From assembly GCA_025698895.1 (NCBI GenBank), contig JAILWO010000004.1, positions 1-64,000 of the forward strand: a DNA stretch of 64,000 nt, read 5' to 3'. Under the pieces are notes generated by a model, which was not told the DNA's origin, did no database searches, and worked only from the letters and a program-made list of their open reading frames with translations. Made by a program: the position numbers and the translations under genes. Of the stretch, positions 13,935-31,159 are shown piece after piece; position 1 is the stretch's first letter; the number at the start of each line of letters is the position of its first letter. Source of the stretch: Rhizobiaceae bacterium. Its GTDB lineage: Bacteria > Pseudomonadota > Alphaproteobacteria > Rhizobiales > Rhizobiaceae.

Positions 13935-13948
13935 GTCTTCTATAAGAC
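13935..13948. promoter_or_regulatory. Palindromic operator upstream of soeA (regulon copy 1)
   Basis: GTCTTCTATAAGAC, 23 bp before the soeA start codon. It differs at one base from the perfect palindrome GTCTTATATAAGAC in the suyA promoter and matches the copy in front of the sulfofructose-kinase-like gene. The embedded TATAAG (13941-13946) could serve as a -10 element, so a bound repressor would block the promoter. Confidence 0.7.
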
Positions 13949-13971
13949 TGGCCTCAAGGGAGTCCCGCCGC

Positions 13972-16812
13972 ATGACCTCAGAGCCGTCCCTGGCGCTCAA
14001 CGAACCCGTTTCGGACGAGGTCCGGAAGACAACCTGCTACATGTGCGCCTGCCGGTGCGGTATCGACGTGCATCTGCGCGATGGCAAGATCCGCTATATC
14101 GAGGGCAATCGCGATCATCCGGTCAACAAGGGCGTGTTATGCGCCAAGGGGTCGGCCGGCATCATGCAGCACTATGCCCCCGCGCGCCTGCGCGCGCCGC
14201 TGCTCAGGACCGGGCCGCGCGGCTCGGGTCAGTTCAGGGAGATCTCCTGGGACGAGGCCCTCGACCTTGCCACGCAATGGCTGGGCGAGGTGCGCGAAAG
14301 CGATCCGAAGAAGCTTGCCTTCTTTACCGGGCGCGACCAGTCGCAGTCGCTGACCGGCTATTGGGCGCAGATGTACGGTACGCCGAACTATGCCGCGCAT
14401 GGCGGGTTCTGCTCGGTCAACATGGCGGCAGCCGGAATCATGACAATCGGCGGCGCCTTCTGGGAATTCGGGGCGCCGGACTGGGACCGCACGAAGCTTT
14501 TCGTGCTGTTCGGCGTAGCGGAGGATCATGATTCCAATCCGCTCAAGATAGGCATTTCAAAGCTCAAGAAGCGCGGCGCCCGCTTCGTATCCGTCAATCC
14601 GGTGCGCACCGGCTACTCCTCCGTCGCGGACGACTGGATCGGTGTCAGGCCGGGGACTGACGGGCTGCTGATCCTTGCCGTCATCCATGAACTGCTGAAG
14701 GCCGGCCGCATCGACGTCGATTACCTGATCCGCTACACCAACGCGCCCTGGCTGGTGATCGACGCGCCGGGGACGTCCGAGCACGGCCTGTTCGTGCGGG
14801 ACGAAGCGGGAAAGCCGCTGGTGTGGGAGACGGTGACGGAGGATTTCGCCGCCAGCGATTCGCGCGGCGCGCGGCCGGCGCTGCATGGCCGCTTCCCGTT
14901 GGCGGATGGTCGCATGGTCGTGCCGTCGTTCCAGCTCCTGGCGGAAAAATACCTGGACCGGAAATACGCACCTGAAGCTGTCGCCGACGCGACCGGCGTT
15001 CCGGTCGAGACGATCCGCGGGCTGGCGGCAGAGATAGGCCGCGTTGCTTTCGAGGAGGCGATCGAGATCGCCCAGCCCTGGACGGACATGAAGGGCGAGC
15101 GCCATCCTTCCATGATCGGCCGGCCGGTCTCGTTTCACGCCATGCGTGGCATCTCCGCCCATTCGAACGGCTTCCAGACGGCCCGGGCGCTGCATCTGCT
15201 TCAGGTGCTGATCGGCTCGATCGACTGCCCCGGCGGCTTCCGCTACGAACCGCCCTATCCGAAGCCGGTCGAGGCGCATCCGACACCACACGGCAAGGCC
15301 GAGCATTTCGGCTCACCGAAACCGCTTTCGGGGCCGCATCTGGGCTTTCCGCGCGGGCCGGAAGATCTCCTCATCGACGAAGACGGGTCGCCGCATCGCA
15401 TCGACAAGGCGTTTTCCTGGGACGCGCCGATCGCCGCGCATGGGCTTATGCACATGGTGATCGCCAACGCCCATGCCGGTGATCCCTATCCGGTCGATCT
15501 CCTGTTCCTCTACATGGCCAACATGGCCTGGAACTCGTCGATGAACACGGCCGGTGTCATCCAGATGCTGGAAGACAAGGACGAGGCGACCGGCGAGTAC
15601 CGCATTCCAAAGATCATCTACTCCGATGCATACCATTCTGAGATGGTCGCCTATGCTGACCTCGTCCTGCCCGATACGACCTACCTGGAACGACACGACT
15701 GCATCTCGCTGCTCGACCGGCCGATCTCGGAGCCGGACGCCGTGCAGGACGCGATCCGCTGGCCCGTGGTCGAGCCGGACCGGGACGTGCGCGCCTTTCA
15801 GTCCGTTCTGATCGATCTCGGCGCGAAGCTGAGATTGCCCGGCTTCGCCGACAGCCGGGGGCAACCGCTCTACACGGATTTCGCCGACTATATCGTGCGC
15901 CATGAAAGGCGGCCGGGGATCGGCCCACTGGCCGGATTCCGCGGCTCCGACGGCACGCGAGCGGGGAGGGGAGCGGCCAACCCGGACCAGCTCAGGCGAT
16001 ACATCGAGAACGGCGCGTTCTTCTCGGCGCATATCCCCGCCGAGGCTCAGTTCTTCAAGCACGCCAATCGCGCCTATCAGGACTTCGCGGTCAAGATGGG
16101 TTTCTTCGACACGCCGCAGCCCGTCACGTTCCAACTCTATTCGGAAACCCTGCAGAAATTCCGCCTGTCGGCGGAGGAACTGCGTGAACCGGTGGCGCCG
16201 CCCACCCATCGCGACCGCGTCATCACGGCGTTTTCGCCGCTGCCGGACTGGTACATGCCTTTCGAGGAAGAGGACGTCGATCGCGCTGCTTACCCTTATC
16301 ACGCCATCACACAGCGGCCGATGGCCATGTACCATTCATGGGGCTCGATGAACGCCTGGCTGAGGCAGATCCATACACGCAACGTGCTTTATGTGCCGGG
16401 CGCCATCTGCGATGCCGAAGGACTGGAAACCGGAGATTGGGCCTGGGTGATGTCTCACCACGGGCGCATCAAGGTGCAGATCGCGCGGACCGATGCCGTC
16501 AACGCGTCGACCATGTGGACCTGGAACGCGATCGGCAAGCGCAAGGGCGCATGGAGGCTTTCCGGTGACGCGCCGGAGGCCAGCCGCGGCTTCCTCCTCA
16601 ACCACCTGATCCATGAACTTCTGCCACCCCGCAAGGACGGCATGCGCTGGTCGAACTCCGATCCGGTCACCGGTCAGGCAGCCTGGTACGATCTACGCGT
16701 GCGCATCGAGAAGGCCGAGCCTGGCGAGGCGTCGGAGCCGGCGTTTCCGCCAGTGGCGCGACCGGCGGAACGGCCCGATCAACTGAGATACGGGCAGGAG
16801 TGGTCGCGATGA
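13972..16812 (+). CDS. soeA: Molybdopterin oxidoreductase, probable sulfite dehydrogenase SoeA
   Basis: A 946-residue catalytic subunit of the DMSO-reductase superfamily. The N-terminal [4Fe-4S] site is C22-C25-C29...C57 (TCYMCACRCG, GVLCAKG). C147 in AHGGFCSVN is the likely molybdenum ligand. There is no Tat signal, so the protein should be cytoplasmic, as described for SoeA of the SoeABC sulfite-oxidising enzyme. Length and three-gene order (catalytic, Fe-S, NrfD/DmsC-type anchor) also fit SoeABC. A copy of the palindrome shared with suyAB lies 23 bp upstream, supporting a role in oxidising sulfite released by sulfolactate cleavage. Alternative: another PsrA/DmsA-like reductase. The molecular family is certain, the substrate inferred. 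Confidence 0.72.
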   Translation: MTSEPSLALNEPVSDEVRKTTCYMCACRCGIDVHLRDGKIRYIEGNRDHPVNKGVLCAKGSAGIMQHYAPARLRAPLLRTGPRGSGQFREISWDEALDLATQWLGEVRESDPKKLAFFTGRDQSQSLTGYWAQMYGTPNYAAHGGFCSVNMAAAGIMTIGGAFWEFGAPDWDRTKLFVLFGVAEDHDSNPLKIGISKLKKRGARFVSVNPVRTGYSSVADDWIGVRPGTDGLLILAVIHELLKAGRIDVDYLIRYTNAPWLVIDAPGTSEHGLFVRDEAGKPLVWETVTEDFAASDSRGARPALHGRFPLADGRMVVPSFQLLAEKYLDRKYAPEAVADATGVPVETIRGLAAEIGRVAFEEAIEIAQPWTDMKGERHPSMIGRPVSFHAMRGISAHSNGFQTARALHLLQVLIGSIDCPGGFRYEPPYPKPVEAHPTPHGKAEHFGSPKPLSGPHLGFPRGPEDLLIDEDGSPHRIDKAFSWDAPIAAHGLMHMVIANAHAGDPYPVDLLFLYMANMAWNSSMNTAGVIQMLEDKDEATGEYRIPKIIYSDAYHSEMVAYADLVLPDTTYLERHDCISLLDRPISEPDAVQDAIRWPVVEPDRDVRAFQSVLIDLGAKLRLPGFADSRGQPLYTDFADYIVRHERRPGIGPLAGFRGSDGTRAGRGAANPDQLRRYIENGAFFSAHIPAEAQFFKHANRAYQDFAVKMGFFDTPQPVTFQLYSETLQKFRLSAEELREPVAPPTHRDRVITAFSPLPDWYMPFEEEDVDRAAYPYHAITQRPMAMYHSWGSMNAWLRQIHTRNVLYVPGAICDAEGLETGDWAWVMSHHGRIKVQIARTDAVNASTMWTWNAIGKRKGAWRLSGDAPEASRGFLLNHLIHELLPPRKDGMRWSNSDPVTGQAAWYDLRVRIEKAEPGEASEPAFPPVARPAERPDQLRYGQEWSR

Positions 16813-17570
16813 CCTCCCTGCCTTCGCTTCCAACGCCGAAGAAGCTCGGCCTTGTCATAGACCTCGATGTTTGCGTGGGTTGCCATGCCTGCGTGATCTC
16901 CTGCAAGGAATGGAACACGGGCGGATACGGGGCGGCGCTGTCGGACCAGGACCCTTACGGGAGGGACGTGTCGGGCACGTTCCTCAACCGAATCCACACC
17001 TTCGAGGTGGTGCCCGAAGGGGGCGAGGTCGCCGGCGAAGGCGGCGCGGCGCGAATCGTGCACTTCCCCAAATCCTGCCTGCATTGCGAGGACGCGCCCT
17101 GCGTGACCGTCTGCCCCACCGGAGCGTCCTACAAGCGCGCCGACGACGGCATCGTGCTGGTCGACGAGGACAAGTGCATCGGCTGCGGCCTTTGTGCCTG
17201 GGCCTGCCCCTATGGCGCGCGCGAAATGGACCTCGCCGCCGGCGTCATGAAGAAGTGCACGCTGTGCGTGGACCGCATCTACAACGAGACGATCGACGCG
17301 GTCGATCGCATTCCCTCCTGCGTGCGCACCTGTCCCGCCAATGCACGCCATTTCGGCGATCTCGCCGATCCTCACTCGGATGTTTCGCGCATGGTGGCCG
17401 AGCGCGGCGGGGTCGATCTGATGCCGGAACAGGAGACGAAACCGGTCAACAAATACCTGCCGCCGCGCCGCCGCAGGCCGGTCGCCGATTCGGCGCCCTT
17501 GCTGGCGGAGAACGCCGACGGCGCGAAAGGTTTCTTCGCCTGGCTGGACGGGGTGCTGGAACGGATATGA
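16809..17570 (+). CDS. soeB: Four-cluster ferredoxin-type electron transfer subunit, probable SoeB
   Basis: A 253-residue DmsB/PsrB-like iron-sulfur protein. Cysteine groups are visible as C22-VGC-HAC-VISC, CLHCEDAPCVTVCP, CIGCGLCAWACP and CTLCVDRI...CVRTCP, giving up to four [4Fe-4S] clusters. It carries electrons from SoeA to the membrane subunit. The start at 16809 overlaps the soeA stop by 4 nt (ATGA) and has AGGAG upstream. Confidence 0.78.
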   Translation: MTSLPSLPTPKKLGLVIDLDVCVGCHACVISCKEWNTGGYGAALSDQDPYGRDVSGTFLNRIHTFEVVPEGGEVAGEGGAARIVHFPKSCLHCEDAPCVTVCPTGASYKRADDGIVLVDEDKCIGCGLCAWACPYGAREMDLAAGVMKKCTLCVDRIYNETIDAVDRIPSCVRTCPANARHFGDLADPHSDVSRMVAERGGVDLMPEQETKPVNKYLPPRRRRPVADSAPLLAENADGAKGFFAWLDGVLERI

Positions 17571-17608: not shown

Positions 17609-18529
17609 ATGCATCCTGCGCTTTCCATCATCGCTTTCACCACGTCGTCCGGCCTGGGCTACGGGCTGGCGGTCGTGCTGGGGCTTGGCCTGCTCGATCC
17701 CGCGACCCTGGCGGCAAAAGTGGCCCATGTCATCGCGGGGTTGTTGATTGTCGGCGGGCTCATGTCGTCGACGCTGCATCTGGGCAATCCACAGCGGGCG
17801 TGGCGCGCGCTCAGCCAGTGGCGGACAAGCTGGCTGTCGCGCGAAGGCGTGCTGGCGATCGTGACGTTCGTGCCGTTTGGGCTGCTGACGATTGCGACCC
17901 TATTCTTCGACCGCTGGTGGATGGTCGCCGGCATTGCGACGGCACTTCTGTCGCTGGTGACCGTCTACTGCACGGCGATGATCTACGCCTCGCTGAAGGC
18001 CATCGACGCGTGGCATACGCCGCTCACACCGGCCTCTTACCTGTCGTTCGCGCTGGCTGGAGGGTTCACGACCGGCGCGGCCTTCGCCGCCATGGGCGGC
18101 GGCTGGTTCGAGCCGCTCGCCATCGTGGCCGCCGTCGCACTCGTCGTCGCGTGGGCAACCAAGCTTATGTGGCGTAACCGCATGATGACCGTGCGCCCCA
18201 CTTCGACACCCGAAAGCGCCACTCAACTGGGCGCGATCGGCCGAGTCCGGCTCTTCGAGCCGCCTCATATGAACGGCAACTATCTCACACGCGAAATGGG
18301 CTACCGGGTTGCGCGCAAGCACGCGCGCAAGCTGGCCATCATAGCGGTGGTTGCCGGAGGCGTTCTGCCGATCCTCCTGCTGGTCGTGGCAATCGCGGCC
18401 GGAACGGGGCCTGCTCAGGTGGTTCTAGCGGTGATCGTGGTGCTCTTTCACGCGATTGGTGTCGTCGTTGAACGGTGGCTGTTCTTCGCCGAGGCGCGAC
18501 ACGCCGTATCGAACTACTACGGCCAATAG
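17609..18529 (+). CDS. soeC: DmsC/NrfD-type membrane anchor, probable SoeC
   Basis: A 306-residue integral membrane protein with about eight hydrophobic helices, similar in length and pattern to DmsC-type anchors (HPALSIIAFTTSSGLGYGLAVVLG at the N-terminus, LSSTLHLGNPQRAWRALSQWRTSWLSREG). The conserved GNPQRAWRAL...SWLSRE block is typical of DmsC/YnfH proteins. It would pass electrons from sulfite oxidation into the quinone pool. It is the third gene of the soe operon, 38 bp after soeB, and ends 5 bp from the convergent lpxXL stop. Confidence 0.78.
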   Translation: MHPALSIIAFTTSSGLGYGLAVVLGLGLLDPATLAAKVAHVIAGLLIVGGLMSSTLHLGNPQRAWRALSQWRTSWLSREGVLAIVTFVPFGLLTIATLFFDRWWMVAGIATALLSLVTVYCTAMIYASLKAIDAWHTPLTPASYLSFALAGGFTTGAAFAAMGGGWFEPLAIVAAVALVVAWATKLMWRNRMMTVRPTSTPESATQLGAIGRVRLFEPPHMNGNYLTREMGYRVARKHARKLAIIAVVAGGVLPILLLVVAIAAGTGPAQVVLAVIVVLFHAIGVVVERWLFFAEARHAVSNYYGQ

Positions 18530-18534: not shown

Positions 18535-19461
18535 TCAGCGGCCGACGATCTTCCAGCGCTTGTGGAACCACATCCACTGGCCTGGATCCTCGCGCACCCA
18601 GCCCTCGACCGTGTCGTTGAGCAACTGGGCGGTCGCCGCAACGTCGACGCGGCCGTCTGGCGCCCGTGGCAGATCGAGCCTCTCGAAGATGTCGAGGCGA
18701 AACCGATTACCCGGCAGGCGGATGCAGCGGGCAGGATAGACGTCGCATTCATATTGCCGGGCCAGCTTGGGCACCAGCGGACTGGTCTCGCATTCGCGGC
18801 CGAAGAAGGTCGTTTGTACGCCGCGATGGAACTTCTGGTCGACCAGCACGCCTATGTTGCCGCCGCGCTCAAGGATACGGGCGAGCGCGAAGGCCACGCC
18901 AGCCTTCGACGCCAGCAACTCGCCCATCGTGGCGCGTCTTGCCGAAAAAAGCTGTTCGGCCAGATAGGGGTTGTTCGGCGGGCGGAACAGAGCGGAGACC
19001 TGCAGGTCGAAGGCCGCGGCACCGATCGGCAGAAACTCAAAGTTTCCGAGATGCCCGGTAAAGAAGATGTGCGGCTTCCTTTCCTCGCGCAGCCGCACGA
19101 AGATATCAATCCCGTTGACCTCGACGCGTCCCACCTGGGGGTCCTGCGGATCGAAGTCGAACAGGCGATCGATGAAAATATACTCGACCGCGAGCCGCGC
19201 CATGTTGCCCCACATGTCGCGCGCGATCGTCTCCAGTTCCGCATCCGGCTTGTCAGGATAGGCCTTTCGCAGATTGTCCATCGCCACGCGGTGGCGGCCG
19301 ACCCACGGTCCGATCGTCCGAGCTGTGCGATCGGCGAAATTCAGCGCGGCGTCGGCCGGCAGGAGCCGCAGAAGGGCCAGCAGCGCCAGCACCACTTTGG
19401 CGATCAGCCAGTATTGCGCCTGCTTGAGACCGCGCAGGAGGGGGAACAGGATCTTCTTCAT
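18535..19461 (-). CDS. lpxXL: Lipid A very-long-chain acyltransferase LpxXL
   Basis: A 308-residue inner-membrane LpxL/HtrB-family acyltransferase with an N-terminal membrane anchor and the catalytic H-X4-E motif in TGHLGNFEFLP. In Rhizobiales, LpxXL transfers the 27-hydroxyoctacosanoyl chain from AcpXL to lipid A. It is the last gene of the acpXL cluster, 19 bp after the dehydrogenase, which supports LpxXL over a general LpxL. Confidence 0.87.
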   Translation of the reverse strand: MKKILFPLLRGLKQAQYWLIAKVVLALLALLRLLPADAALNFADRTARTIGPWVGRHRVAMDNLRKAYPDKPDAELETIARDMWGNMARLAVEYIFIDRLFDFDPQDPQVGRVEVNGIDIFVRLREERKPHIFFTGHLGNFEFLPIGAAAFDLQVSALFRPPNNPYLAEQLFSARRATMGELLASKAGVAFALARILERGGNIGVLVDQKFHRGVQTTFFGRECETSPLVPKLARQYECDVYPARCIRLPGNRFRLDIFERLDLPRAPDGRVDVAATAQLLNDTVEGWVREDPGQWMWFHKRWKIVGR

Positions 19462-19480
19462 CGCTGCGGGCGACGGGCGC

Positions 19481-20509
19481 CTATGATACCCGGAGAATGA
19501 TCTTGCCGAAGACGTCCCGGCCTTCCATGCGCTTGAGCGCGGAGCCGAGCCCGTCGAAATCCACTTCCGTATCGATGACAGGCCGCACGAGGCCAGCGGC
19601 CATCTTCTGCATGGCGTCGGCCATGTTTTCCATGCGGCAGCCGAAGGAGCCGATGATCTTCAATTGCTGTTGGAAGAGCTGCATCAGGTTCATGGACGTC
19701 GACACGCCCGAAGTCGAACCGCAGGTCACGAGCCGGCCGCCGCGCTTCATGCTGAGCATCGATCCGGCCCATGTGTCGGCGCCGACATGCTCGAAAACGA
19801 CGTCGACGCCCTTCTTCTTCGTGAGTTTGCGGACCGCACCCTCGAAGCGGTCCTCGCGGTAGTTGATGACGTGGTCGGCGCCGAGCGCGACCGCCTTTTC
19901 CATCTTGTCGGGCGACCCGACGGTGGTGATGACGGTACATCCCGTCTTTTTCGCGAGCTGGATCGCTGCGGTACCGATCCCCGACCCGCCGGCATGAACC
20001 AGGATCGTTTCGCCCGGCTGAAGCCTCGCATTGTCGAACAGCATGTGCTCGACCGTGCCGAACGTCACGGGCGCCACGGCCGCGCCGATCGCGTCCACGC
20101 CGGGCGGCGCGGGAACGAGCAGGCGCGCCGGCAGATTGATCAGTTCCTGCGCGAAACCGTCGAGATGGAAGCCGTGCACCCCGCCGACATGCTCGCAAAG
20201 ATTGTCGCGACGCTCTCGGCAGGCGCGGCAGAGCCCACAGGTGCGGGCGCCGTAGATCGAGACGAGCTGACCTGGTGCGAGCCCGGCGACGCCGGGTCCG
20301 ACCGCGTCAACCACGCCGGACGCCTCTGCGCCGATCGTCAGCGGCAGCTTGCGCTTGGCGAAGGCCATGCCGCGCCAACCCCACACGTCTATGTGATTCA
20401 GCGCAACCGCCTGGATGCGAAGCGTCACCTCGCCATGAGCAGGAGGCGGGGGCGGGGGTATGTCGACCGCTTCGAGACGGCGGTCTTCGATGAGCTGGAG
20501 AGCGCGCAT
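19481..20509 (-). CDS. Zinc-type alcohol dehydrogenase-like protein of the acpXL cluster
   Basis: A 342-residue MDR-superfamily oxidoreductase. The structural-zinc cysteines are present (CGLCRACRERRDNLC) and the Rossmann motif is ILVHAGGSGIGTAAIQLAKKTG. This corresponds to the adh/fabXL gene between the ketosynthase genes and lpxXL in Rhizobium acpXL clusters, where it is needed for normal very-long-chain acyl synthesis; its exact reaction (possibly enoyl reduction) is not settled. An unusual run of proline residues (PPPPPPAHGE) sits near residue 18. Confidence 0.84.
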   Translation of the reverse strand: MRALQLIEDRRLEAVDIPPPPPPAHGEVTLRIQAVALNHIDVWGWRGMAFAKRKLPLTIGAEASGVVDAVGPGVAGLAPGQLVSIYGARTCGLCRACRERRDNLCEHVGGVHGFHLDGFAQELINLPARLLVPAPPGVDAIGAAVAPVTFGTVEHMLFDNARLQPGETILVHAGGSGIGTAAIQLAKKTGCTVITTVGSPDKMEKAVALGADHVINYREDRFEGAVRKLTKKKGVDVVFEHVGADTWAGSMLSMKRGGRLVTCGSTSGVSTSMNLMQLFQQQLKIIGSFGCRMENMADAMQKMAAGLVRPVIDTEVDFDGLGSALKRMEGRDVFGKIILRVS

Positions 20510-20557
20510 GTGTGGTGCTAGAGCGTGCTACGGCAAGAGGGCAGCACCTTGCACCGC

Positions 20558-20635
20558 AGAAATTCAGCTAAAACAAATAGATGGGGCATGTTCCTGTCCG
20601 AGAGCCGGTTCCCGCTTTGCGGAACATGCCCTAGA
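20558..20635. repeat. Dispersed palindromic element GGGCATGTTCC...GGAACATGCCC
   Basis: The gap between the ketosynthase and dehydrogenase genes holds an inverted repeat: GGGCATGTTCC near 20583 and GGAACATGCCC near 20622, about 28 bp apart, followed by CTAG. The whole unit, including the upstream AAAACAAATAGAT, matches my recollection of a very common intergenic repeat in Mesorhizobium and relatives. Confidence 0.7.
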
Positions 20636-21899: not shown

Positions 21900-21909
21900 G
21901 GCGGCCTCC

Positions 21910-23170: not shown

Positions 23171-23455
23171 TCAGGCAGCCGCCTTCGCGGCGACAAGCGA
23201 ATCGATCTTGGCGCAGAGATTCCTCATGACGAAGTATTCCTCGGTCGAGACCTTGCCGTCGTTGACCTCCTGCGTCCACTTCTCGAGCGGCACCTTGATG
23301 CCGAATTCCTTGTCGATCGCGAAGACGATATCGAGGAAATCGAGGCTGTCGATGCCGAGATCGTCGATCGTGTGGCTCTCGGGCGTAATCTTGTCGCGGT
23401 CGATTTCGCTGGTCTCAGCGATGATGTCGGCCACCTTGTCGAACGTGGAAGGCAC
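23171..23455 (-). CDS. acpXL: Specialised acyl carrier protein AcpXL
   Basis: A 94-residue acyl carrier protein with the phosphopantetheine-attachment serine in [19 protein letters not shown]. The length, the C-terminal alanine-rich tail and the neighbouring ketosynthases and lpxXL identify it as AcpXL, the carrier for the 28-carbon hydroxy-fatty acid of lipid A. It is the first gene of the cluster; the gap to the next gene is only 73 bp and holds no fabZ. Confidence 0.93.
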
Positions 23456-23624: not shown

Positions 23625-24101
23625 TCAAAGCGCGAGCTTGCGATTGTCGCCCATGTTGGGTTTCGAGTCGGTGAGCTTCGATTTGGCCAGTTCATATAAC
23701 TGCACCAGTGTCGAGCCGGAACGATCCCAGAATTGCGCTTCCTCCGGTACCACGGTGATGACCTCGACATTGGCGGTCTCGGCATCCCCGTCGAACCATG
23801 CGTCGGCGTAGCTGTTCCAAAGTTCTTTTATCACGGCGCGGTCCTTGGAGATCGACGCGCGGCCCGCGACCGATATGAAAAGCATCGAGCCCTCGTCGGC
23901 GAAGGCAAGATTGACGTCATGGTCTTCGCGGATTTCCCGTGTCTTCGGTGAGCCCGCCTCGGTGAGGAACCGGATTTTGCCGGCGTCCTCGTCGATATGC
24001 GGCGCCATTGGCCTCGAATGCAGCTTATCGCCGTCCTCGCTTGTGACCATGCAGGTGCGGAACTTGTTGATCTTCTTCCAGAAATCGGAGCGATCGCTCA
24101 T
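23625..24101 (-). CDS. Pyridoxamine 5'-phosphate oxidase-like (general stress) flavin-binding protein
   Basis: A 158-residue split-barrel FMN-type protein of the general-stress-protein-26 group: TCMVTSEDGDKLHSRPM near residue 20 (cofactor-binding RPM motif), IRFLTEAGSPKTREI and VVPEEAQFWDRSG. Such proteins bind flavin or F420-like cofactors; the reaction is usually unknown. The start at 24101 has GAGGAGG. It is divergent from the sulfofructose-kinase-like gene, and the regulon palindrome lies between them, so it may be co-regulated. Confidence 0.82.
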   Translation of the reverse strand: MSDRSDFWKKINKFRTCMVTSEDGDKLHSRPMAPHIDEDAGKIRFLTEAGSPKTREIREDHDVNLAFADEGSMLFISVAGRASISKDRAVIKELWNSYADAWFDGDAETANVEVITVVPEEAQFWDRSGSTLVQLYELAKSKLTDSKPNMGDNRKLAL

Positions 24102-24190
24102 GTCAGCCTCCTCGGTTGGCGTTCCTTGCGGAATGTCCGGCATGAGCAATCGTTCCGCCGCGATCTCACTTCTGTCACGCCAACTCTTGT

Positions 24191-24204
24191 ATCTTATATA
24201 AGAC
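24191..24204. promoter_or_regulatory. Palindromic operator upstream of the kinase-aldolase operon (regulon copy 2)
   Basis: ATCTTATATAAGAC, containing the perfect 12-bp palindrome TCTTATATAAGA and preceded by TTGT. The same TTGTATCTTAT string occurs in the suyA promoter. It sits about 50 bp before the kinase gene and about 87 bp before the divergent stress-protein gene. Confidence 0.75.
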
Positions 24205-24253: not shown

Positions 24254-25162
24254 ATGCTCCCGGCCCACATGGCAACCGTTCTCATCGCAGGCCTAGCCAC
24301 GCTCGATTTCGTCTTCGACGTCGATGCCATGCCGCGCACGGCGGAAAAGCACCGGGCGCGCGATGCCTCCATGATCGGCGGCGGCGGCGCGGCGAACGCG
24401 GCCGTCGCGATCTCCCGGCTTGGAGGTCGGGCCAGTCTGGCGGTGCGCCTCGGCGATGACGAATTCGCCGCGCTGATCGAGGCCGGGCTCGCCGGAGAGG
24501 GCGTCGACGGTTCATTGATCAGGCGCATAGCAGGATCGCGGTCATCGTTCTCTTCCGTATTCATCGATCGAAAGGGCGAGCGGCAGATCGTGAACTTTCG
24601 TGACGACACGACATCGACGGATGCCAACTGGATCTCACAGTCCGATATGTCCATCGACGCCGCCCTGTCCGACACGCGATGGCCGGAAGGCGCGCTCGCG
24701 GCGATGCAACTCGCCCGGCGGCAGGGCCGGCCGGGCGTCATCGACGGCGAAGCGCCGGCCCGCCTGGCGCTTGCCGCGCTTGTAGCCGCATCGCATATCG
24801 CCTTCTCGGCGCAGGGGTTGCGGGAATTCGCAGGAACCGACGATTTTCGAGACGGTCTGGCGAAGGCTCGCGACGAGACCGGCGCATGGGTATGTGTTAC
24901 CGACGGGGCGAATGGCGTGGCTGTGCTGGAGGAGGAAAGGTTGCGCACGATCCCGGCATTTGGCGTGGATGCCGTCGATACGCTCGCCGCGGGCGATGTC
25001 TGGCACGGCGCCTTCGCGCTGGCGCTTGCCGAAAGGCAGGGCGAAATCGATGCGGTGCGGTTCGCCAACGCGGTGGCGGCGATCAAGTGCATGCGGGCTG
25101 GTGGAAGGGCCTCCTATCCGGACCGGGCAGCGGTCGAGACATTCCTGAAGGATGCGGCATGA
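24254..25162 (+). CDS. PfkB-family kinase, probable sulfofructose kinase (YihV-like)
   Basis: A 302-residue ribokinase/PfkB sugar kinase. GGGGAANAAVAISRLGG lies at the N-terminus and the ATP/anion-hole motif reads VDTLAAGDVWHGAF (the usual GAGD is AAGD). From memory, E. coli YihV shares several non-generic blocks: a DxRW segment (here SDTRWPEGA) whose arginine helps bind the sulfonate, DGE..., HIAFS..GL and a C-terminal AIKCMRAGGRASYPD. It would phosphorylate 6-deoxy-6-sulfofructose to sulfofructose-1-phosphate. It overlaps the aldolase gene by 4 nt. No clear ribosome-binding site precedes either 24254 or the alternative ATG at 24269. Confidence 0.78.
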   Translation: MLPAHMATVLIAGLATLDFVFDVDAMPRTAEKHRARDASMIGGGGAANAAVAISRLGGRASLAVRLGDDEFAALIEAGLAGEGVDGSLIRRIAGSRSSFSSVFIDRKGERQIVNFRDDTTSTDANWISQSDMSIDAALSDTRWPEGALAAMQLARRQGRPGVIDGEAPARLALAALVAASHIAFSAQGLREFAGTDDFRDGLAKARDETGAWVCVTDGANGVAVLEEERLRTIPAFGVDAVDTLAAGDVWHGAFALALAERQGEIDAVRFANAVAAIKCMRAGGRASYPDRAAVETFLKDAA

Positions 25163-26208
25163 AGATCGAACTGACCCCCGGCAAGCTGTGGGGCATGCGC
25201 AGGATGGCGGACGCGGCCGGGCGTTTCAAGATGACCGCCGTCGACCAGCGTCCACCGATCAAGAACCCGATCGCGAAGCACTACGGGCTGCCGGAAGCGC
25301 CCTGGGAGGACGTCGCCGGCTTCAAGGCGCTGCTCATAGAGACCCTGCAAGGCGAATCGACGGCCATGCTGCTGGACCCGCACTACGCGATTCCCAAGGG
25401 GCTTTCGCTGATGTCGCCGCAGAAGGGGCTGATCGTCACCCTGGAGGACTCGCTGTTTCGCGAGACGGATGAAGGGCGCCTGTCCGACGAGATCGACGAC
25501 TGGTCGGTCGAGAAGATCAAGCGCATGGGTGGAGACGCGGTCAAGGTGCTGGCCTGGTATCGGCCCGATGCCGGCCAGGCGGTCAACCGGCACCAGCAGG
25601 ACTTCGTGAAGCGAATCGGAGAAGCCTGCCAGCGCCTTGATATTCCGTTTCTTTTCGAGCTTCTGGTCTATCCGCTGAAATCCGACGCGAACCAGACGCG
25701 CGATTATGTCGAGATGAAGGGCAAGAAGGCGGAGGACGTGCTGGCGTCGGTGGCGGAGTTCGCCAGGCCGGACTATGGCGTTGACGTCTTCAAGCTGGAG
25801 AGCCCGATCAATGCGGCCGACGCGCCGGGGCATGGGATGGACGGATCGTCCGAGGTGCAGTCGCTCTTTGACGAGATGGGCCGGCTTGCCGGCCGGCCCT
25901 GGGTGATGTTGTCGGCCGGCGCGGGCAAGACCGAGTTCCGCAACATTCTAAGTCATGCCTATGCCGCCGGTGCATCAGGCTATCTGGCGGGGCGCGCGAT
26001 CTGGCTCGAGGCGTTCGGCCACTTTCCCGACTGGGATCGCATGCGGGCTGAACTCTCGGGCGAAGGTGTTGCCTATATGCGCGACATAAACGCTCTGACC
26101 GATGCCAGCGCGAAGCCCTGGCACGACCACGAATGCTATGGCGAGGACGGTGCTTCGATCAGGCCGGCCGATGCCGGGTTTCGCCGCTCCTATGGCGGCT
26201 TTGCATGA
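25159..26208 (+). CDS. LacD/YihT-family class I aldolase, probable sulfofructose-1-phosphate aldolase
   Basis: A 349-residue aldolase of the tagatose-bisphosphate aldolase (LacD) family, which includes YihT. The Schiff-base lysine is likely in VDVFKLESP; other family blocks are FKMTAVDQRPPI (N-terminus), MLLDPHYAIPKG, IPFLFELLVYPL and PWVMLSAGAGKTEF. It would cleave sulfofructose-1-phosphate to dihydroxyacetone phosphate and sulfolactaldehyde. The start overlaps the kinase stop (ATGA), so the two are co-translated. A tagatose-1,6-bisphosphate role is the alternative, but no tagatose genes are near whereas suyAB is. Confidence 0.78.
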   Translation: MKIELTPGKLWGMRRMADAAGRFKMTAVDQRPPIKNPIAKHYGLPEAPWEDVAGFKALLIETLQGESTAMLLDPHYAIPKGLSLMSPQKGLIVTLEDSLFRETDEGRLSDEIDDWSVEKIKRMGGDAVKVLAWYRPDAGQAVNRHQQDFVKRIGEACQRLDIPFLFELLVYPLKSDANQTRDYVEMKGKKAEDVLASVAEFARPDYGVDVFKLESPINAADAPGHGMDGSSEVQSLFDEMGRLAGRPWVMLSAGAGKTEFRNILSHAYAAGASGYLAGRAIWLEAFGHFPDWDRMRAELSGEGVAYMRDINALTDASAKPWHDHECYGEDGASIRPADAGFRRSYGGFA

Positions 26209-26212: not shown

Positions 26213-26776
26213 TCACCTGAAAATGATGCGACCCAGCACAGCCAGGCCATCCTCGCCTTCCGGCTTGGGGCCAACGATCACGGCCTCTCCATCACGCGGC
26301 CTGACGCCGGTGAGGGCGGTGATGTTGTCCTGGTGTGTGACAAGAACGACGTTGTTTGAACCGGTGTACGAATTCACGAACCCGATCACTTCGGCAGATC
26401 GTTCGCGTTCGGCATCTTCATTGTTCGCCAAGGAGTCGAGTGCGGGCCACGGTTCGATGATGTCAGCATCGAAAGCCTGCCGCGCCGTGTCGAGCGCTCG
26501 GCAATACCGGCTCGACAAAACACGGGTCACCGGCGCGGCGCGGGCCGCCAGCAAGGCTCCCATCTTGCGGGCCTGGAGCCGGCCCTGCTCGGACAAGTTC
26601 CGCTGCGTGCGGCAATCCTCGATATCGAAATTGGCGGGATCGCCCGCGCCCGGCGCGGCGGCATGACTGATGAGCACGACATGTCCCCCTTGGCGCAACA
26701 ATGCCCATCCGGCTTCTGTCGCGGCCGCCGGCAAGGCGATCAGCAAGCTGCAAATGAGTAGAACGATCCGGATCAT
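26213..26776 (-). CDS. Exported histidine-phosphatase-family protein with altered RHG motif
   Basis: A 187-residue protein with a signal peptide (MIRIVLLICSLLIALPAAA) and a histidine phosphatase (SixA/phosphoglycerate-mutase-like) domain: NLSEQGRLQARKMGALLAARAAPVTRVLSSRYCRALDTA and a second-His segment VVLVTHQDNITALTG. The catalytic motif, normally RHG/RHA, reads LISHAAAPG, so the phosphate-binding arginine is replaced by serine. The other core residues look intact. It converges on the aldolase gene (4-bp gap) and is probably not part of that operon. The substrate is unknown. Confidence 0.78.
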   Translation of the reverse strand: MIRIVLLICSLLIALPAAATEAGWALLRQGGHVVLISHAAAPGAGDPANFDIEDCRTQRNLSEQGRLQARKMGALLAARAAPVTRVLSSRYCRALDTARQAFDADIIEPWPALDSLANNEDAERERSAEVIGFVNSYTGSNNVVLVTHQDNITALTGVRPRDGEAVIVGPKPEGEDGLAVLGRIIFR

Positions 26777-26821
26777 GCGTTTTCCATCGACTTTTAGAGC
26801 TTACAGCTAGGCGAATTGGCG

Positions 26822-28222
26822 ATGAAAGACAAAACAACCGTCGGTGTGCTGCCGCTCGCGCGGCCTACCTTCGACGCCGAGTTCGCGCGGGAGAAACTGG
26901 CGGCGATGCTGGCCGCCCTACGCGGGACAGGCGCGCGCATCGTCGGCTCGGACGAGATGCTGTTTGATCTCGACGCGGCCCGCGCTGCCATCGACGAACT
27001 CGCAGGACAGCAGCCCGATCGTATCGTCATCCTCCAGGCGACCTTCACCGATGCGATGGCGGCGGTGGCGGCCGGCGACACCTTCGACGGGCCGATCTCG
27101 ATCTGGGCGGTTCCCGAACCGCGCGCCGGTGGGCGCCTGAGGCTCAACTCTTTCTGCGGTCTCAATCTCGCCGCTCATGCGCTGGGGTTGAGAGAGCGCC
27201 CGTTCTCCTATCTCTACACGGATCCGGATGACCCGGAGATTGGTATCGCACTCGACCAGCTGCTTGGTGGCGGGCGGCTCGCGCGGCCGGATCAGACCCG
27301 GCCGGCGGTATCCGACGACGACGGCAAGGGCCGAATGGCGGCCGAGGCGCTGGCGGGAAGCCGTATCGCACGGATCGGCCGTCACCCCGACGGTTTCGAC
27401 ACCTGCGCCTATGACGTGGCCCGGCTGAAGGGCCTGGCCGGGGTTGATGTCGAGGAACTGGAGCTTTCCGCCCTGTTCGATCTCGCCGGCCGCGTTTCGA
27501 CCGGGGAGGGCACGCGGCTGCGGCATGAGGCGGAGGCCGTGCTCGACGGGCTCGACAAGGTGGACCAACCGCAACTCAGGCGCTCTCTGGCACTTAGAAG
27601 CGCCATCGAGACGATCCGGAGCCAAGGCGGCTTCGACGCGCTTGCGATCCGCTGCTGGCCGGAGACGTTCACCGAATATGGTGGCGCGGTGTGCGGGCCC
27701 GTCTCGATGATGGGCGAGGCACGCGTGCCGTGTGCCTGCGAGGCGGATGTCTATGGCGCGCTGACGCAGTTGCTGCTTCAGAAGGTAGCCGACCAGCCGG
27801 TGTTCCTGGCTGACCTGGTTGATCTGGACGTGGCCGACGATACCGGCGTGGTCTGGCATTGCGGGCAGGCACCGGTCTCCATGGCGGCGGAGGGCGCGCG
27901 CCCGCAGGCGACTATCCACACCAACCGCAAGATGCCACTGCTGTTCGAGTTTCCGCTGAAACCCGGCCGCGTGACAATTTTCCGCATCAGCCAGGCGCGC
28001 GGCGAAACATTCGCCGTCATCGGAGGCGGCGAGATGCTCGACCGGCCGATGGCTTTCACGGGAACCAGCGGCGTGCTCCGGTTCGATTCAGGAGCCCGCA
28101 CGGTGCTCGACCGTGTGATCGGCAATGCACTCGAACATCACATGGCCATCGTCTATGGAGACCATCGAAATGCTCTGGAAGCAGCAGCAGGACGTCTCGG
28201 AATTCCCGTCCTTGCGCTCTGA
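26822..28222 (+). CDS. Fucose/arabinose-isomerase-like protein, candidate sulfoquinovose isomerase
   Basis: A 466-residue protein with the two-domain layout of L-fucose/L-arabinose-isomerase-like enzymes: an N-terminal Rossmann-like part (VGVLPLARPTFD...RIVILQATFTDAMAA) and a C-terminal part with AIRCWPETFTEYGGAVCGPVSMMGEARVPCACEADVYGAL, a segment containing candidate metal-binding Glu residues, and a later GGGEML. In a sulfosugar island it would convert sulfoquinovose to sulfofructose; isomerases of this broad fold have been described in non-enterobacterial sulfoglycolysis. The ATG at 26822 is preferred over a TTG at 26816. The last 53 bp overlap the next gene. Confidence 0.65.
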   Translation: MKDKTTVGVLPLARPTFDAEFAREKLAAMLAALRGTGARIVGSDEMLFDLDAARAAIDELAGQQPDRIVILQATFTDAMAAVAAGDTFDGPISIWAVPEPRAGGRLRLNSFCGLNLAAHALGLRERPFSYLYTDPDDPEIGIALDQLLGGGRLARPDQTRPAVSDDDGKGRMAAEALAGSRIARIGRHPDGFDTCAYDVARLKGLAGVDVEELELSALFDLAGRVSTGEGTRLRHEAEAVLDGLDKVDQPQLRRSLALRSAIETIRSQGGFDALAIRCWPETFTEYGGAVCGPVSMMGEARVPCACEADVYGALTQLLLQKVADQPVFLADLVDLDVADDTGVVWHCGQAPVSMAAEGARPQATIHTNRKMPLLFEFPLKPGRVTIFRISQARGETFAVIGGGEMLDRPMAFTGTSGVLRFDSGARTVLDRVIGNALEHHMAIVYGDHRNALEAAAGRLGIPVLAL

Positions 28223-29315
28223 CCCGACCCTCTCGACCGTTCGCTACGGTATCATCGGCTGCGGCATGATGGGCCGCGAGCATGTGCGCAACATCGAGAT
28301 GCTGGACGGCGCGGTCGTCACCGCGATTTCCGATCCCGACATCACGAGCCGCGAATTGGCTGCCGGACCACATCGCGACCGGATGAAGGTTTTCGCTGAT
28401 CATCGCGAACTGTTGGCATCGGACCTGTGCGACGTTTTGCTGATCGCCAGTCCCAACCACACCCATATCGACATCCTCCGCGACGTGCTGCCCCTGGAAA
28501 AGCCACTCCTGGTGGAAAAACCACTCTGCTCTACGGTCGAGGATTCCAGGGAGGCCCTTCGGCTTGCGGCCGGACGGCGCGCGCCGGTCTGGGTGGCGAT
28601 GGAATATCGTTATATGCCGCCCGTGCAGCGGCTCCTGTCCGAACTCGACTCCGGAACTGTGGGGCGGCTCAGGATGCTGTCTATCCGCGAGCATCGCTAT
28701 CCATTCCTGTCGAAGGTCGGCGACTGGAACCGTCTGTCGGCCAAGACGGGCGGCACCATGGTCGAGAAATGTTGCCACTTCTTCGACCTCATGCGCCTGA
28801 TCGCCAAGGCTGAACCGGTCCGCGTCTACGCATCCGGCGCACAGGATGTGAACTTCCTCGACGAGGTCTATGCCGAGGGCAGGGCGGACGTGCTCGACAA
28901 CGCCTTCGTCATAGTCGATTTCGACAATGGCGTGCGCGCCATGCTGGATCTGTGCATGTTCGCGGAGGGCAGCTATTGGCAGGAGCAGATTGCGGCAACG
29001 GGTGACAAAGCGCAGGTCGAGGCTTTCATACCCGGGCCGGCGCGTTTCTCCGCCGACGGAAGGGAGCGGAATTCGGAAGTCGTGATCTCCCCGCGCGCAA
29101 CCAAGTCGCCGAGGCGCGAGGAAATCATCACCGACCACGCGATCCTTTCGGCCGGTGACCATCACGGCTCGACTTACTACCAGCACCGGCGCTTCCTCGA
29201 CCTGGTGCGCAATGGCGGCACACCCGAGGTGACGCTGGAGGACGGGCTGAAGGCGGTGATGATCGGCGCCGCGGCGGAGGAAAGCGTCAGGACCGGGGCT
29301 CCGGTCGCGCTCTGA
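28170..29315 (+). CDS. Gfo/Idh/MocA-family protein, candidate NAD-dependent sulfoquinovosidase
   Basis: A 381-residue protein with an N-terminal NAD-binding domain (VRYGIIGCGMMGREHVRN), the family LLVEKPLCST motif and a C-terminal alpha/beta domain. Instead of the usual dehydrogenase EKP-plus-DxxxH pattern it has GGTMVEKCCHFFDLMRLI and a late GDHHGSTYYQHRRF. NAD-dependent sulfoquinovosidases (GH188) belong to this superfamily and occur in sulfoglycolysis clusters, and no GH31 YihQ-type enzyme is in the window, so this is the best candidate for releasing sulfoquinovose from its glycosides. A sugar dehydrogenase is the alternative. The start at 28170 has GGAG nine bases upstream; ATGs at 28125 and 28155 do not. 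Confidence 0.6.
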   Translation: MLWKQQQDVSEFPSLRSDPTLSTVRYGIIGCGMMGREHVRNIEMLDGAVVTAISDPDITSRELAAGPHRDRMKVFADHRELLASDLCDVLLIASPNHTHIDILRDVLPLEKPLLVEKPLCSTVEDSREALRLAAGRRAPVWVAMEYRYMPPVQRLLSELDSGTVGRLRMLSIREHRYPFLSKVGDWNRLSAKTGGTMVEKCCHFFDLMRLIAKAEPVRVYASGAQDVNFLDEVYAEGRADVLDNAFVIVDFDNGVRAMLDLCMFAEGSYWQEQIAATGDKAQVEAFIPGPARFSADGRERNSEVVISPRATKSPRREEIITDHAILSAGDHHGSTYYQHRRFLDLVRNGGTPEVTLEDGLKAVMIGAAAEESVRTGAPVAL

Positions 29316-29385
29316 AGGCGCAGCGCATGACGCCCATGCGTCAGGCGCGGTTGTGCCGGTCTGCCGTCGAGCTTATCGCAGGCTG

Positions 29386-30333
29386 ATGTACGCCCTGGTC
29401 GAAACCATCCTTCTCGTCTTCGGTCTCGTCGCGCTCGGCTATGGAGCCGGAGCGGTGCGCTATCTGCGCGAAGACGCCGGCGACGCCCTGACGGAATTCG
29501 CGGTCGGCATCGCGCTGCCACTGCTCCTGTTCCGGACCATGGCCAGGGCCGATTTTCACGGGGCCGCGCCGTGGGCCTTCTGGAGCGTCTATTTCACCGC
29601 CGTCGTGGTCGCATGGGCGACGGGTCATCTGGTGACGACTAAGCTATTCGGCCGCGAGCGCCAGGCTGGCGTCGTCGGCGGCGTATCGGCGGCGTTCTCC
29701 AATCTGGTTCTCCTGGGCATTCCCTTCATGCTGGGCGTGTTCGGGCAGGAAGGCTTCGAGATACTCTCGCTGCTGGTCTCGGTCCACTTGCCGATCATGA
29801 TCCTTGCCTCGATCGTCCAGTTTCGCCTGTTCTCGCCGACGCTGGCCGGAGGCGGCGCGATCGGCGCGGCCCGTGATTTCGTGCGCCAGATTCTATCCAA
29901 TCCACTGATCATCGGAATCGCGGCCGGTCTGCTGTGGCGATTGAGTGGATTTCCGCTACCACCACTGGCGTCGCGATTCGTCGATGCGCTGGCCGATGTC
30001 GCGGGGCCGGTGGCCTTGTTCGCCATGGGTTTGGGCCTGAGAAAGTTCGGCATTTCAGGCAATGTGAAGCCCGGTATCGCGCTAGCCGTCGTCAAGCTTG
30101 GCCTGATGCCGGCGGTCGCGCTTATGGCGGCCTGGGCAGTCGGCCTGCCGCCGCTGACGGCCAAGGTGGCGGTGGCCGCGGCCGCGCTGCCCTCTGGCGT
30201 CAATTCCTATCTGATCGCCACTCAGCTCGGCACCGGCCAGGCCCTGGCATCGAACGCGATGACGATCGCCACGGCGTCGGCTGTCATCACTACCGCCTTC
30301 TGGATTGCGGTCGGGCAGGCGGTGTTCGGATGA
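29386..30333 (+). CDS. AEC-family transporter
   Basis: A 315-residue integral membrane protein of the auxin efflux carrier/MdcF family, with about ten hydrophobic helices (YALVETILLVFGLVALGYGAG at the N-terminus; SNLVLLGIPFMLGVFG; LPSGVNSYLIATQLGTGQALASNAMTIATA near the C-terminus). Related proteins move small organic anions. It follows the isomerase and Gfo/Idh genes on the same strand, so it could transport a sulfonated metabolite, but the direction and substrate are unknown. Confidence 0.82.
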   Translation: MYALVETILLVFGLVALGYGAGAVRYLREDAGDALTEFAVGIALPLLLFRTMARADFHGAAPWAFWSVYFTAVVVAWATGHLVTTKLFGRERQAGVVGGVSAAFSNLVLLGIPFMLGVFGQEGFEILSLLVSVHLPIMILASIVQFRLFSPTLAGGGAIGAARDFVRQILSNPLIIGIAAGLLWRLSGFPLPPLASRFVDALADVAGPVALFAMGLGLRKFGISGNVKPGIALAVVKLGLMPAVALMAAWAVGLPPLTAKVAVAAAALPSGVNSYLIATQLGTGQALASNAMTIATASAVITTAFWIAVGQAVFG

Positions 30334-30340: not shown

Positions 30341-31072
30341 TCAACGCAGTTCAGACAGATAGTGCACGTGGTCTGTCAGGCAGCGTGACACGCGCAGTTC
30401 GACCGGCCGGCCCTCGAGGTCGAGCGCGATCCGTTTGATCTCCAGCAACGGCGCGCCCTTGTTGCAGCCGAGCGCGGCAGCGTCGTCGGGGGAAGCCGTC
30501 ACCGCTTTAAGTTTTTCCACCGCGCGCGCAATCGTAACGCGCCAGCGCTGGGAATAGAGAAGGTAGACATTGTTCGGAACCGCCTCCAGTCGGTCGAAAT
30601 CCGGGAAACGGATCAGTGGCAGCGTGATCGATTCCGAGATCAGCGGGCGGGCCTCCAGCGCGCGGCTGCGGGAAATCCGCCAGACTTCGGATCCGTCTTC
30701 AAGTTCGAGCGCTTCGCGTTCGGCTTTGTTGGCTCGTGACCTGGACAGATCACTGACTTGCGAGGTCGGGAAGGCGCGCTCTCCACGGTCGGGCGTCAGC
30801 CGAAAGAACTGGAAGAGCATGCGGCCGTCTTCTGGTTCGGCCACATATGTGCCGCGTCCCTGGCGCCGGACCAGCAGGTTCTCCGCCGTCATGGCGTCGA
30901 GCGCCTTGCGGATCGTGCCCTGGCTGACGCCGACCTCGCGCGCCAGCTCGATCTCCGACGGTATCAACTGACCCGGCTGCCACCGACCTTCGATCAGCCT
31001 CCGCACCAGGCTGTCGCGCACCTGAACATAGAGCGGCTTGTAAGCGAAACCCGCTTCCCCGGCGTCGGCCAT
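30341..31072 (-). CDS. GntR-family regulator with UTRA domain, probable sulfosugar/sulfolactate repressor
   Basis: A 243-residue regulator of the HutC subfamily: a GntR winged HTH (VRRLIEGRWQPGQLIPSEIELAREVGVSQGTIRKALDAMTAENLLVRRQGRGTYVA, residues 24-78) and a UTRA effector domain (about 95-243). It is divergent from suyA with a 121-bp gap that holds the perfect palindrome GTCTTATATAAGAC, which also occurs before the kinase and soe operons. It probably represses all three until a sulfonated intermediate binds the UTRA domain. The start at 31072 has GGAGGA. Confidence 0.85.
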   Translation of the reverse strand: MADAGEAGFAYKPLYVQVRDSLVRRLIEGRWQPGQLIPSEIELAREVGVSQGTIRKALDAMTAENLLVRRQGRGTYVAEPEDGRMLFQFFRLTPDRGERAFPTSQVSDLSRSRANKAEREALELEDGSEVWRISRSRALEARPLISESITLPLIRFPDFDRLEAVPNNVYLLYSQRWRVTIARAVEKLKAVTASPDDAAALGCNKGAPLLEIKRIALDLEGRPVELRVSRCLTDHVHYLSELR

Positions 31073-31117
31073 CCGGCTTCGTCTCCTCCAGAGTGACCGG
31101 TTTGTAGCCGCTTCCCG

Positions 31118-31159
31118 TTGACACTGCCACTGTTTTGTATCTTATGTCTTATATAAGAC
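31118..31159 (+). promoter_or_regulatory. suyA promoter with overlapping palindromic operator (regulon copy 3)
   Basis: A -35-like TTGACA at 31118-31123 is followed 17 bp later by CTTATG as a weak -10. The perfect 14-bp palindrome GTCTTATATAAGAC (31146-31159) overlaps or directly follows it, and the preceding TATCTTAT repeats the left half-site. The palindrome ends 34 bp before the suyA start. The promoter call is moderate; the palindrome is directly visible. Confidence 0.7.

Follow-up and report, generated by a model that had tools for sequence, protein, structure and literature searches.

A palindromic operator and a GntR/UTRA protein predict a sulfonate regulon in a Rhizobiaceae bacterium

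Analysis of a palindrome that precedes three operons in a 64,000-nucleotide stretch of DNA from a Rhizobiaceae bacterium (contig JAILWO010000004.1, positions 1 to 64,000; G000:C4:1-64000, hereafter the window) was undertaken together with that of the neighboring gene for a GntR/UTRA protein, the proposed reader of the palindrome. The palindrome appears to be the predicted docking site of a single GntR-type regulator of the uptake of plant sulfosugars, their breakdown to sulfite and the oxidation of this sulfite. With high confidence we propose that one GntR/HutC protein governs a sulfonate regulon and its own gene, with the full palindrome form GTCTTATATAAGAC as its operator in front of four operons: gntR/suyA, kinase-aldolase, soe and, on another contig, an operon for an ABC importer and a GH31 glycosidase. 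The proposal is based on the sites themselves, their rarity and conservation, their co-occurrence with gntR, their absence before soeA and kinase homologues of genomes lacking gntR, and the autoregulatory position of one of them; binding by a dimer, repression rather than activation and the nature of the ligand are what we infer from these data. An initial annotation of the window had put forward a three-operon version of this regulon. That observation was real and largely rightly interpreted.

The palindrome and its copies in the genome

The core of the palindrome, TCTTATATAAGA, was found by pattern scan at 13935, 24191 and 31146 of the window, and a check of both positions and letters agreed with the initial annotation for all three. 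The scan of the 64,000 nucleotides revealed nothing else within two mismatches, as had been claimed from reading alone; the next-best places, 33173 and 48402, carry three mismatches each. The palindrome end is separated from the start codon by 23 bp at soeA, 49 bp at the kinase gene and 34 bp at suyA, within the announced range of 23–50 bp. The start codon of the divergent gntR gene lies 73 bp from the palindrome at 31146-31159.

The genome (4.76 Mb, seven contigs) contains three exact copies of the core and one with a single mismatch, four in all, compared to one for a reversed control at the same tolerance. Markov models of order 1-3 built from window statistics and scaled to 4.76 Mb put the expected number of exact copies at ~0.004 and that of copies at up to one mismatch at 0.27-0.31; the corresponding expectations from base composition only are 0.014 and 0.75. 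The 14-mer matches four places in the genome at 0-1 mismatch, one at two and 12 at three (17 in total; 34 for the reversed control), a distribution that sets the four sites clear of the background. Thus, the genome-wide scan that had been suggested as a check produced four sites at up to one mismatch and no scatter of random copies, and a chance origin of the palindromes was ruled out both by the Markov expectation for exact copies and by the 14-mer background.

The fourth copy, at G000:C1:320615-320628, is outside the window on a different contig. A gene for an ABC sugar-binding protein (P0001) has its start codon 64 bp downstream of this copy, and genes for two permeases, an ATPase and a GH31 glycosidase come after it in the same direction. 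The extent of the proposed regulon had been set too short: it would have at least four operons, including the importer-GH31 operon. Genes for a UxuA-like mannonate dehydratase and a fructuronate reductase-like protein are found just upstream of the importer site (8751-11428 of locus L005), and likewise in several relatives.

Co-occurrence of the palindrome with gntR in relatives

A family set of 297 genomes was searched for the regulator gene (protein match at E<=1e-40) and for the palindrome. GntR is present in 54 genomes and the exact palindrome in 49: 38 of the 54 gntR-bearing genomes contain it, compared to 11 of the 243 gntR-less ones (Fisher 2e-25). The reversed pattern occurs in 21 of the 297 genomes.

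Individual loci were inspected in a named set, the best 80 of 585, chosen by likeness to the GntR protein and partly via recognition-helix peptide patterns. The core was sought at up to one mismatch within 300 bp ahead of gntR or suyA. It was detected ahead of gntR in 65/80 loci (reversed control 0/80), ahead of suyA in 71 of the 73 loci with suyA in reach (reversed control 0/73) and at one gene or the other in 75/80, while the reversed core was never seen within two mismatches. The named loci include Aquibium, Nitratireductor, Hoeflea, Aurantimonas, Bosea, Methylobacterium and Paracoccus, as well as Vibrio (where the core is at suyA, not at gntR), gammaproteobacterial metagenome-assembled genomes and a SAR324 metagenome-assembled genome. 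In relative G020, gntR and suyA are on separate contigs, each with a one-mismatch core. Two GntR homologues of 37-39% identity (L069, L381) have no motif within two mismatches upstream. The recognition helix VSQGT[VI]RKALD is invariant in nine aligned GntR orthologues; its pattern has 50 matches in the named loci, which were partly fetched by that very pattern, so these matches are no independent evidence.

Kinase promoters were taken from the 30 best aldolase loci among 47 aldolase genomes; 29 gave a kinase match and G004 was dropped. The core at up to one mismatch is present in 21/23 gntR-bearing and 0/6 gntR-less genomes, and the 20 distinct kinase sites lie 33-72 bp ahead of the estimated start. 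For the importer, the 30 best loci of 42 genomes with the binding protein were analyzed. Every one of the 17 binding-protein homologues with 64% identity or more comes from a gntR-bearing genome, and 14 of them have the core at up to one mismatch; none of the 13 more distant homologues read has it.

A close soeA homologue was found in 123 of the 297 family genomes, 34 of them with gntR. Fifty soeA promoters were read, 29 from gntR-bearing genomes and 21 from the 89 soeA genomes without gntR; together with G089, this covers 30 of the 34 genomes that have both genes (G138, G185, G207 and G231 were left out). The core is present at up to one mismatch in 9/29 promoters with and 0/21 without gntR (Fisher 0.006), and at up to two mismatches in 14/29 and 0/21, respectively (Fisher 9e-5). 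Its position is -33 to -36 in 13 of these 14 genomes, the genome of the window included. G089, a further gntR genome, carries an exact core before soeA. All four operons are preceded by the core at up to one mismatch not only in the genome of the window but also in four relatives (G175, G091, G258 and G311).

The motif is thus conserved in relatives at the same genes and together with the gntR gene. The linkage of sulfite oxidation, sulfosugar cleavage and sulfolactate cleavage proposed initially also stood up, with the sites before soeA and the kinase gene following the presence of gntR and the suyA site conserved as described above. We consider it extremely unlikely that the palindromes are chance sequences or a general promoter or structural element with no tie to GntR. 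A-T-rich palindromes do arise near promoters, and exact copies are found in some gntR-less genomes, just as the reversed control is found in part of the family set; against this stand the three exact copies where ~0.004 were expected and the soeA and kinase promoters of gntR-less genomes, whose uniform lack of the core (0/21 and 0/6) rules out a general promoter element.

Several results weigh against a regulon of this composition. With one mismatch allowed, the core is missing from both gntR and suyA in five of the 80 named loci: L153 and L191 are truncated by the end of their contigs, L178 has two mismatches, and L140 and L201 are plain misses. No site at up to one mismatch was found before the kinase homologues of G083 and G231 (2/23) or the importer homologues of G319, G154 and G020 (3/17). 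At soeA, 15/29 gntR-bearing genomes are without a site within two mismatches, and the soeA genes of G031 and G153, at 87% identity among the closest in sequence, have none. Promoter scans revealed no sigma-70-like promoter around the three window sites, and hence no operator-promoter overlap of the kind that usually marks repression. Finally, kinship among the genomes makes the counts interdependent, the named loci were picked by GntR likeness, and the gntR-less soeA genomes are a sample (21/89). Since the soeA site is missing in so many gntR-bearing genomes, sulfite oxidation is, on this comparison, a real but optional member of the predicted regulon and the least secure one, its site being the least conserved and probably the weakest.

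Genes of the putative regulon and its proposed mechanism

The gene names used below are family matches, several of which fall below curated cut-offs. The regulator gene (30341..31072, minus strand) codes for a 243-aa protein with Pfam matches to GntR (69.2 bits) and UTRA (100.3 bits), both above cut-off. The protein has the N-terminal GntR helix-turn-helix and C-terminal UTRA domain that place it in the HutC subfamily of the GntR family, and its closest natural full-length solved relatives are DasR and YvoA. The operator shared by gntR and suyA (31140..31159) consists of the palindrome at 31146-31159 and an extra half-site, TCTTAT, at 31140-31145; the suyA site reads TCTTATGTCTTATATAAGAC. On the plus strand follow a suyA-like gene for the small subunit of sulfolactate sulfo-lyase (31194..31481) and a suyB-like gene for its large subunit of the GD_AH type (31552..32733). 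The suyA-like open reading frame (95 aa) has no Pfam match; it was named by its position before suyB, conserved in relatives, on what we take to be the known gene order. Further downstream are genes for a TctC binding protein (32828..33811), a fused TctA-TctB permease (33883..35862), an slcC-like 2-hydroxyacid dehydrogenase (35859..36803; Pfam 2-Hacid_dh) and a comC-like sulfolactate dehydrogenase of the Ldh_2 type (36800..37804; best NCBIfam match L-sulfolactate dehydrogenase, below cut-off). By sequence, a GD_AH large subunit adjoining SlcC- and ComC-like genes is the arrangement of SuyAB. Next come an aldehyde dehydrogenase gene (37824..39281), a candidate for sulfolactaldehyde dehydrogenase, and an aldose 1-epimerase gene (39282..40295), a candidate sulfosugar mutarotase. 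The aldehyde dehydrogenase scores above the subfamily cut-off for succinate-semialdehyde dehydrogenase; 8c54, which we take to be a Rhizobium sulfolactaldehyde dehydrogenase, is its seventh-ranked relative (579 bits), behind chains named succinate-semialdehyde or aldehyde dehydrogenase.

On plasmid pFER3 of Paracoccus ferrooxidans (L382), two GntR-type genes flank a region with slcC/comC-like, tripartite tricarboxylate transporter (TTT) and hisD/short-chain dehydrogenase genes. The second GntR-type gene is divergent from a FlgA-annotated gene, which may be a misnamed suyA, with a one-mismatch core between them (18529); another one-mismatch core is at 6498. In L215, where a gene for an ABC ATPase lies near gntR-suyA, an exact palindrome is present upstream of this gene at 10154.

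The operator before the kinase-aldolase operon (24185..24204) combines the palindrome at 24191-24204 with an extra half-site, TCTTGTA, at 24185-24191. The PfkB kinase (24254..25162, plus strand; Pfam PfkB) has sulfofructose kinase 7ag6 as its best solved relative (193.6 bits) and by sequence qualifies as a kinase of the sulfo-Embden-Meyerhof-Parnas (sulfo-EMP) route. The next gene (25159..26208, plus) encodes a LacD-class aldolase, a candidate sulfoketose-1-phosphate aldolase, with 324 bits to 8tnf, for which no function is named, and 59-61 bits to YihT chains. A FucI-like isomerase gene (26816..28222; match to the SftI model, below cut-off) and genes for a Gfo/Idh/MocA oxidoreductase (28194..29315) and an AEC-type membrane transport protein (29353..30333) are on the same strand. 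They are separated from the aldolase gene by a histidine-phosphatase-like gene on the minus strand (26213..26776; a weak Pfam match of 28.2 bits, above cut-off), so the operator at 24191 can be assigned to the kinase and aldolase genes only. A reverse-strand open reading frame is likewise found between the aldolase and isomerase genes in L210. Divergent from the kinase gene is a PPOX-type gene (23625-24101, minus strand; F420-dependent PPOX model, below cut-off); the operator is ~90 bp before its start and might affect it too. In L210 and L212 (genomes G162 and G187), further exact or near copies of the palindrome precede TRAP transporter genes, identified in L210 by Pfam DctM and DctP, between the mutarotase and kinase genes.

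The operator before soeABC (13935..13948), GTCTTCTATAAGAC, is an imperfect palindrome without the extra half-site. It precedes, on the plus strand, genes for a soeA-like molybdopterin oxidoreductase (13972..16812; Pfam Molybdopterin and Fe4S4), sulfite dehydrogenase subunit A by name only, a soeB-like Fe-S subunit (16800..17570; Pfam Fer4_11) and a soeC-like DmsC membrane anchor (17609..18529; Pfam DmsC). The NCBIfam matches of the first two are below cut-offs. Between the soe and kinase operons, a minus-strand cluster (18535-23196) of lipid A acyltransferase, alcohol dehydrogenase and two ketoacyl-ACP synthase genes has no operator.

The GH31 protein of the importer operon was tried as a YihQ-type sulfoquinovosidase and rejected: it scores 155.5 bits against a cut-off of 553 and matches alpha-glucosidases better. 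This is also the best YihQ-type score in the genome, where none exceeds the cut-off; GH188 sulfoquinovosidases were not part of the search. Among the 25 genomes taken into the YihQ search, five (G027, G020, G145, G215 and G319) have a sulfoquinovosidase of 906-943 bits on the same contig as the same GH31 gene, a few kb away. In G027, genes for the binding protein, permeases, ATPase, GH31 glycosidase, an aldose epimerase, an SMP-30-type lactonase, a short-chain dehydrogenase and a YihQ-type sulfoquinovosidase follow each other on one strand. The dehydrogenase and lactonase are components of the sulfo-Entner-Doudoroff (sulfo-ED) route, whose dehydratase and aldolase did not turn up in the 19.5 kb of G027 that were read. 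The sulfoquinovosidase and sulfo-ED-like neighbors in relatives connect the importer operon with sulfosugar use by evidence other than the palindrome. In L141 (Sinorhizobium sp. 6-70), an exact palindrome at 12583-12594 is located close before another ABC sugar-binding protein gene.

The true substrate of the regulon might be another sugar, such as sulfofucose, instead of sulfoquinovose. We regard this as somewhat unlikely, though the FucI-like isomerase, the LacD (tagatose-type) aldolase and the lack of a YihQ-type match above cut-off in the genome of the window all point in this direction, and a Paracoccus is described to use sulfofucose via SuyAB (PMC12421959). In that organism, however, sulfofucose did not increase the PfkB/LacD-family pair (PMC12421959). 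The kinase of the window has sulfofructose kinase as its best solved relative, and the G027 importer-GH31 genes run on into a YihQ-type sulfoquinovosidase gene, both of which argue for sulfoquinovose.

The mechanism that we propose for the regulon is as follows. The GntR/UTRA protein would bind GTCTTATATAAGAC as a dimer before gntR/suyA, kinase-aldolase, soe and importer-GH31, keeping the four operons and its own gene off as long as no sulfonate is available. A C3 sulfonate, most likely sulfolactate, would bind the UTRA domain and release the protein from DNA, leading to joint switch-on of sulfosugar import, sulfoglycolysis, sulfolactate cleavage and sulfite oxidation. Sulfosugar uptake would thereby be induced by a downstream product of the pathway. 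Regulators of this family usually work in this way: a dimer occupies the operator, its own gene is silenced, and a metabolite at the UTRA domain releases it. The choice of ligand follows from gene neighborhoods. While suyA is present within the fetched flanks (up to 10 kb) in 73/80 gntR loci, an aldolase of the sulfo-EMP type (at least 50% identity) is present in 13/80; genome-wide, 25 of the 54 gntR-bearing family genomes have the aldolase at 63% identity or more. Since suyA is near gntR far more often than the aldolase, the common signal is probably sulfolactate or a related C3 sulfonate and not the sugar of one route.

We think it distinctly improbable that the GntR protein is an activator, or activates at some sites and represses at others, instead of being a plain repressor. 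The failure to recognize a promoter element around the window sites would be consistent with activation, and the distance from site to start, which varies with the operon and the genome (33 to 266 bp), does not fix the position of the site relative to the promoter. Yet most HutC-subfamily proteins are autoregulated repressors, and the spacing of the window sites from their start codons (23-50 bp) suits blocking better.

The operator word, SdhR and other known systems

A third half-site, with a 7-bp period and on one side of the palindrome, is present in 52/79 suyA, 18/20 kinase, 12/14 importer and 1/15 soeA sites; a 7-mer as close to the half-site occurs at 0.3% of window positions. Since the extra half-site is nearly absent from soeA sites, the soe operator would be the most reduced form and is probably the weakest. 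Further boxes in the vicinity of GntR-family sites are described as a general feature (PMC4494728).

The operator word is not new. The motif TCTTATGTCTTATATAAGACATAAGA is reported for SdhR, a HutC-subfamily protein, in PMC4494728, the one paper that a literature search for the word itself turned up and which cites a 2012 paper by Suvorova, Ravcheev and Gelfand. Most sites of the HutC subfamily have 4 nt between GT and AC, SdhR being an exception in the same subfamily (PMC4494728). In GTCTTATATAAGAC the distance is 10 nt, so the usual, though not defining, HutC spacing is absent here. The word is thus the same as that of the published SdhR motif and across bacteria is not special to sulfonate genes. 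The initial statement that the palindrome defines a sulfonate regulon therefore stood for the genome of the window and its relatives, while the word itself was already in print. The 2012 study may already hold a prediction for alphaproteobacteria.

SdhR resembles the GntR protein of the window in having a GntR+UTRA architecture, its gene beside its own site, and the same operator word including extra half-sites. The suyA site follows TCTTATGTCTTATATAAGACATAAGA, with the extension at suyA and at the importer on one side only. Sites of the sulfonate regulon mostly carry the extra half-site on one side, and the soeA site has none. SdhR stands at sdh-gltA in Burkholderiales, where the operator also precedes aceA and acnB. 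Plasmid and chromid records of that order were found to carry the word: an exact core is beside a GntR/UTRA gene at the sdh-gltA cluster of Caballeronia sp. M1242 (L377) and beside a GntR/UTRA gene, a citrate synthase gene (both identified by Pfam) and sdh-like open reading frames in Burkholderia cenocepacia (L378). In Cupriavidus metallidurans (L379) and Paraburkholderia phymatum (L380), exact cores precede the isocitrate lyase and aconitase B genes, respectively, with no adjoining GntR gene identified, which hints at a wider tricarboxylic acid (TCA) cycle/glyoxylate regulon in Burkholderiales.

Alternatively, the sites of the window might be those of a central-metabolism regulator of the SdhR type, or be read by both proteins, with sulfonate genes riding along under TCA-cycle or carbon-status control. 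The printed motif with its additional symmetry (PMC4494728), the cores at central-metabolism genes of the four Burkholderiales and the 36% identity between the two SdhR proteins and the GntR protein of the window favor this explanation, which we nevertheless hold to be very improbable. In a single FastTree tree (99 sequences, midpoint-rooted), SdhR is outside the 69-member clade that holds the GntR protein of the window (support 0.96), so on this tree the two are not orthologous. The four sites of the genome at up to one mismatch are all before sulfonate or sugar-import genes and not at sdh; the sdh genes of this genome were not located. The one sdh-linked copy met among the family genomes is in relative G031 (contig C77, L067). 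The 40%-identical paralogue with the motif there was tried as a second regulator and rejected: its sdh-gltA neighbors are 72-79% identical to Caballeronia, and C77 is probably a contaminant contig carrying SdhR and its operator. We conclude that the predicted operator word is old and shared between SdhR and the GntR protein of the window, and that their regulons differ. This would be a case of two related regulators with one operator but different metabolism; if true, one DNA code serves two unrelated regulons, one for sulfonates and one for the TCA cycle.

The kind of regulator and the operator word are thus known, and what is new is a predicted regulon that would tie the whole mineralization route together. 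We give about an even chance to a broader proposal, in which a sulfonate-mineralization regulon operates in alpha- and gammaproteobacteria and SAR324, sulfolactate induces distant import, sulfoglycolysis and sulfite-oxidation genes, the operator is shared with the sister TCA regulator SdhR, and the ABC-GH31 operon is a new, YihQ-less uptake system for sulfosugar glycosides. Where a regulator and its operator can be recognized from sequence, unknown members of a pathway can be found by their operator; here the operator led to the importer-GH31 operon on a different contig, and in relatives it also drew attention to TRAP transporters and to other ABC transporters. Sulfoquinovose is produced on a gigaton scale (PMC13372026).

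A search of the literature for a link of such a regulator to sulfoquinovose, sulfolactate or suyAB genes found none, with subscription papers mostly outside its reach. A gntR gene is listed next to ectoine transporter genes in PMC4334477, and the word "regulator" is absent from the available text of two reviews of sulfoquinovose breakdown (PMC12890257 and PMC9594981). DasR and YvoA (NagR) share the helix-turn-helix and UTRA domains with the GntR protein of the window but control N-acetylglucosamine genes. CsqR (YihW) of E. coli belongs to the DeoR family and recognizes a different operator; it is not known to act outside the yih cluster or on genes for sulfolactate cleavage or sulfite oxidation. 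Like the proposed GntR regulator, CsqR controls sulfoquinovose catabolic genes (PMC10991401). A parallel in gene content is Paracoccus wurundjeri, which uses an ED-type route, not kinase and aldolase, and for which the accessible text names no regulator or operator ("regulator" and "GntR" have no matches there; PMC12421959). On sulfofucose, its proteome shows a joint increase of an ABC importer, sulfosugar enzymes, SlcC, ComC and SuyAB (PMC12421959), a response that fits common control.

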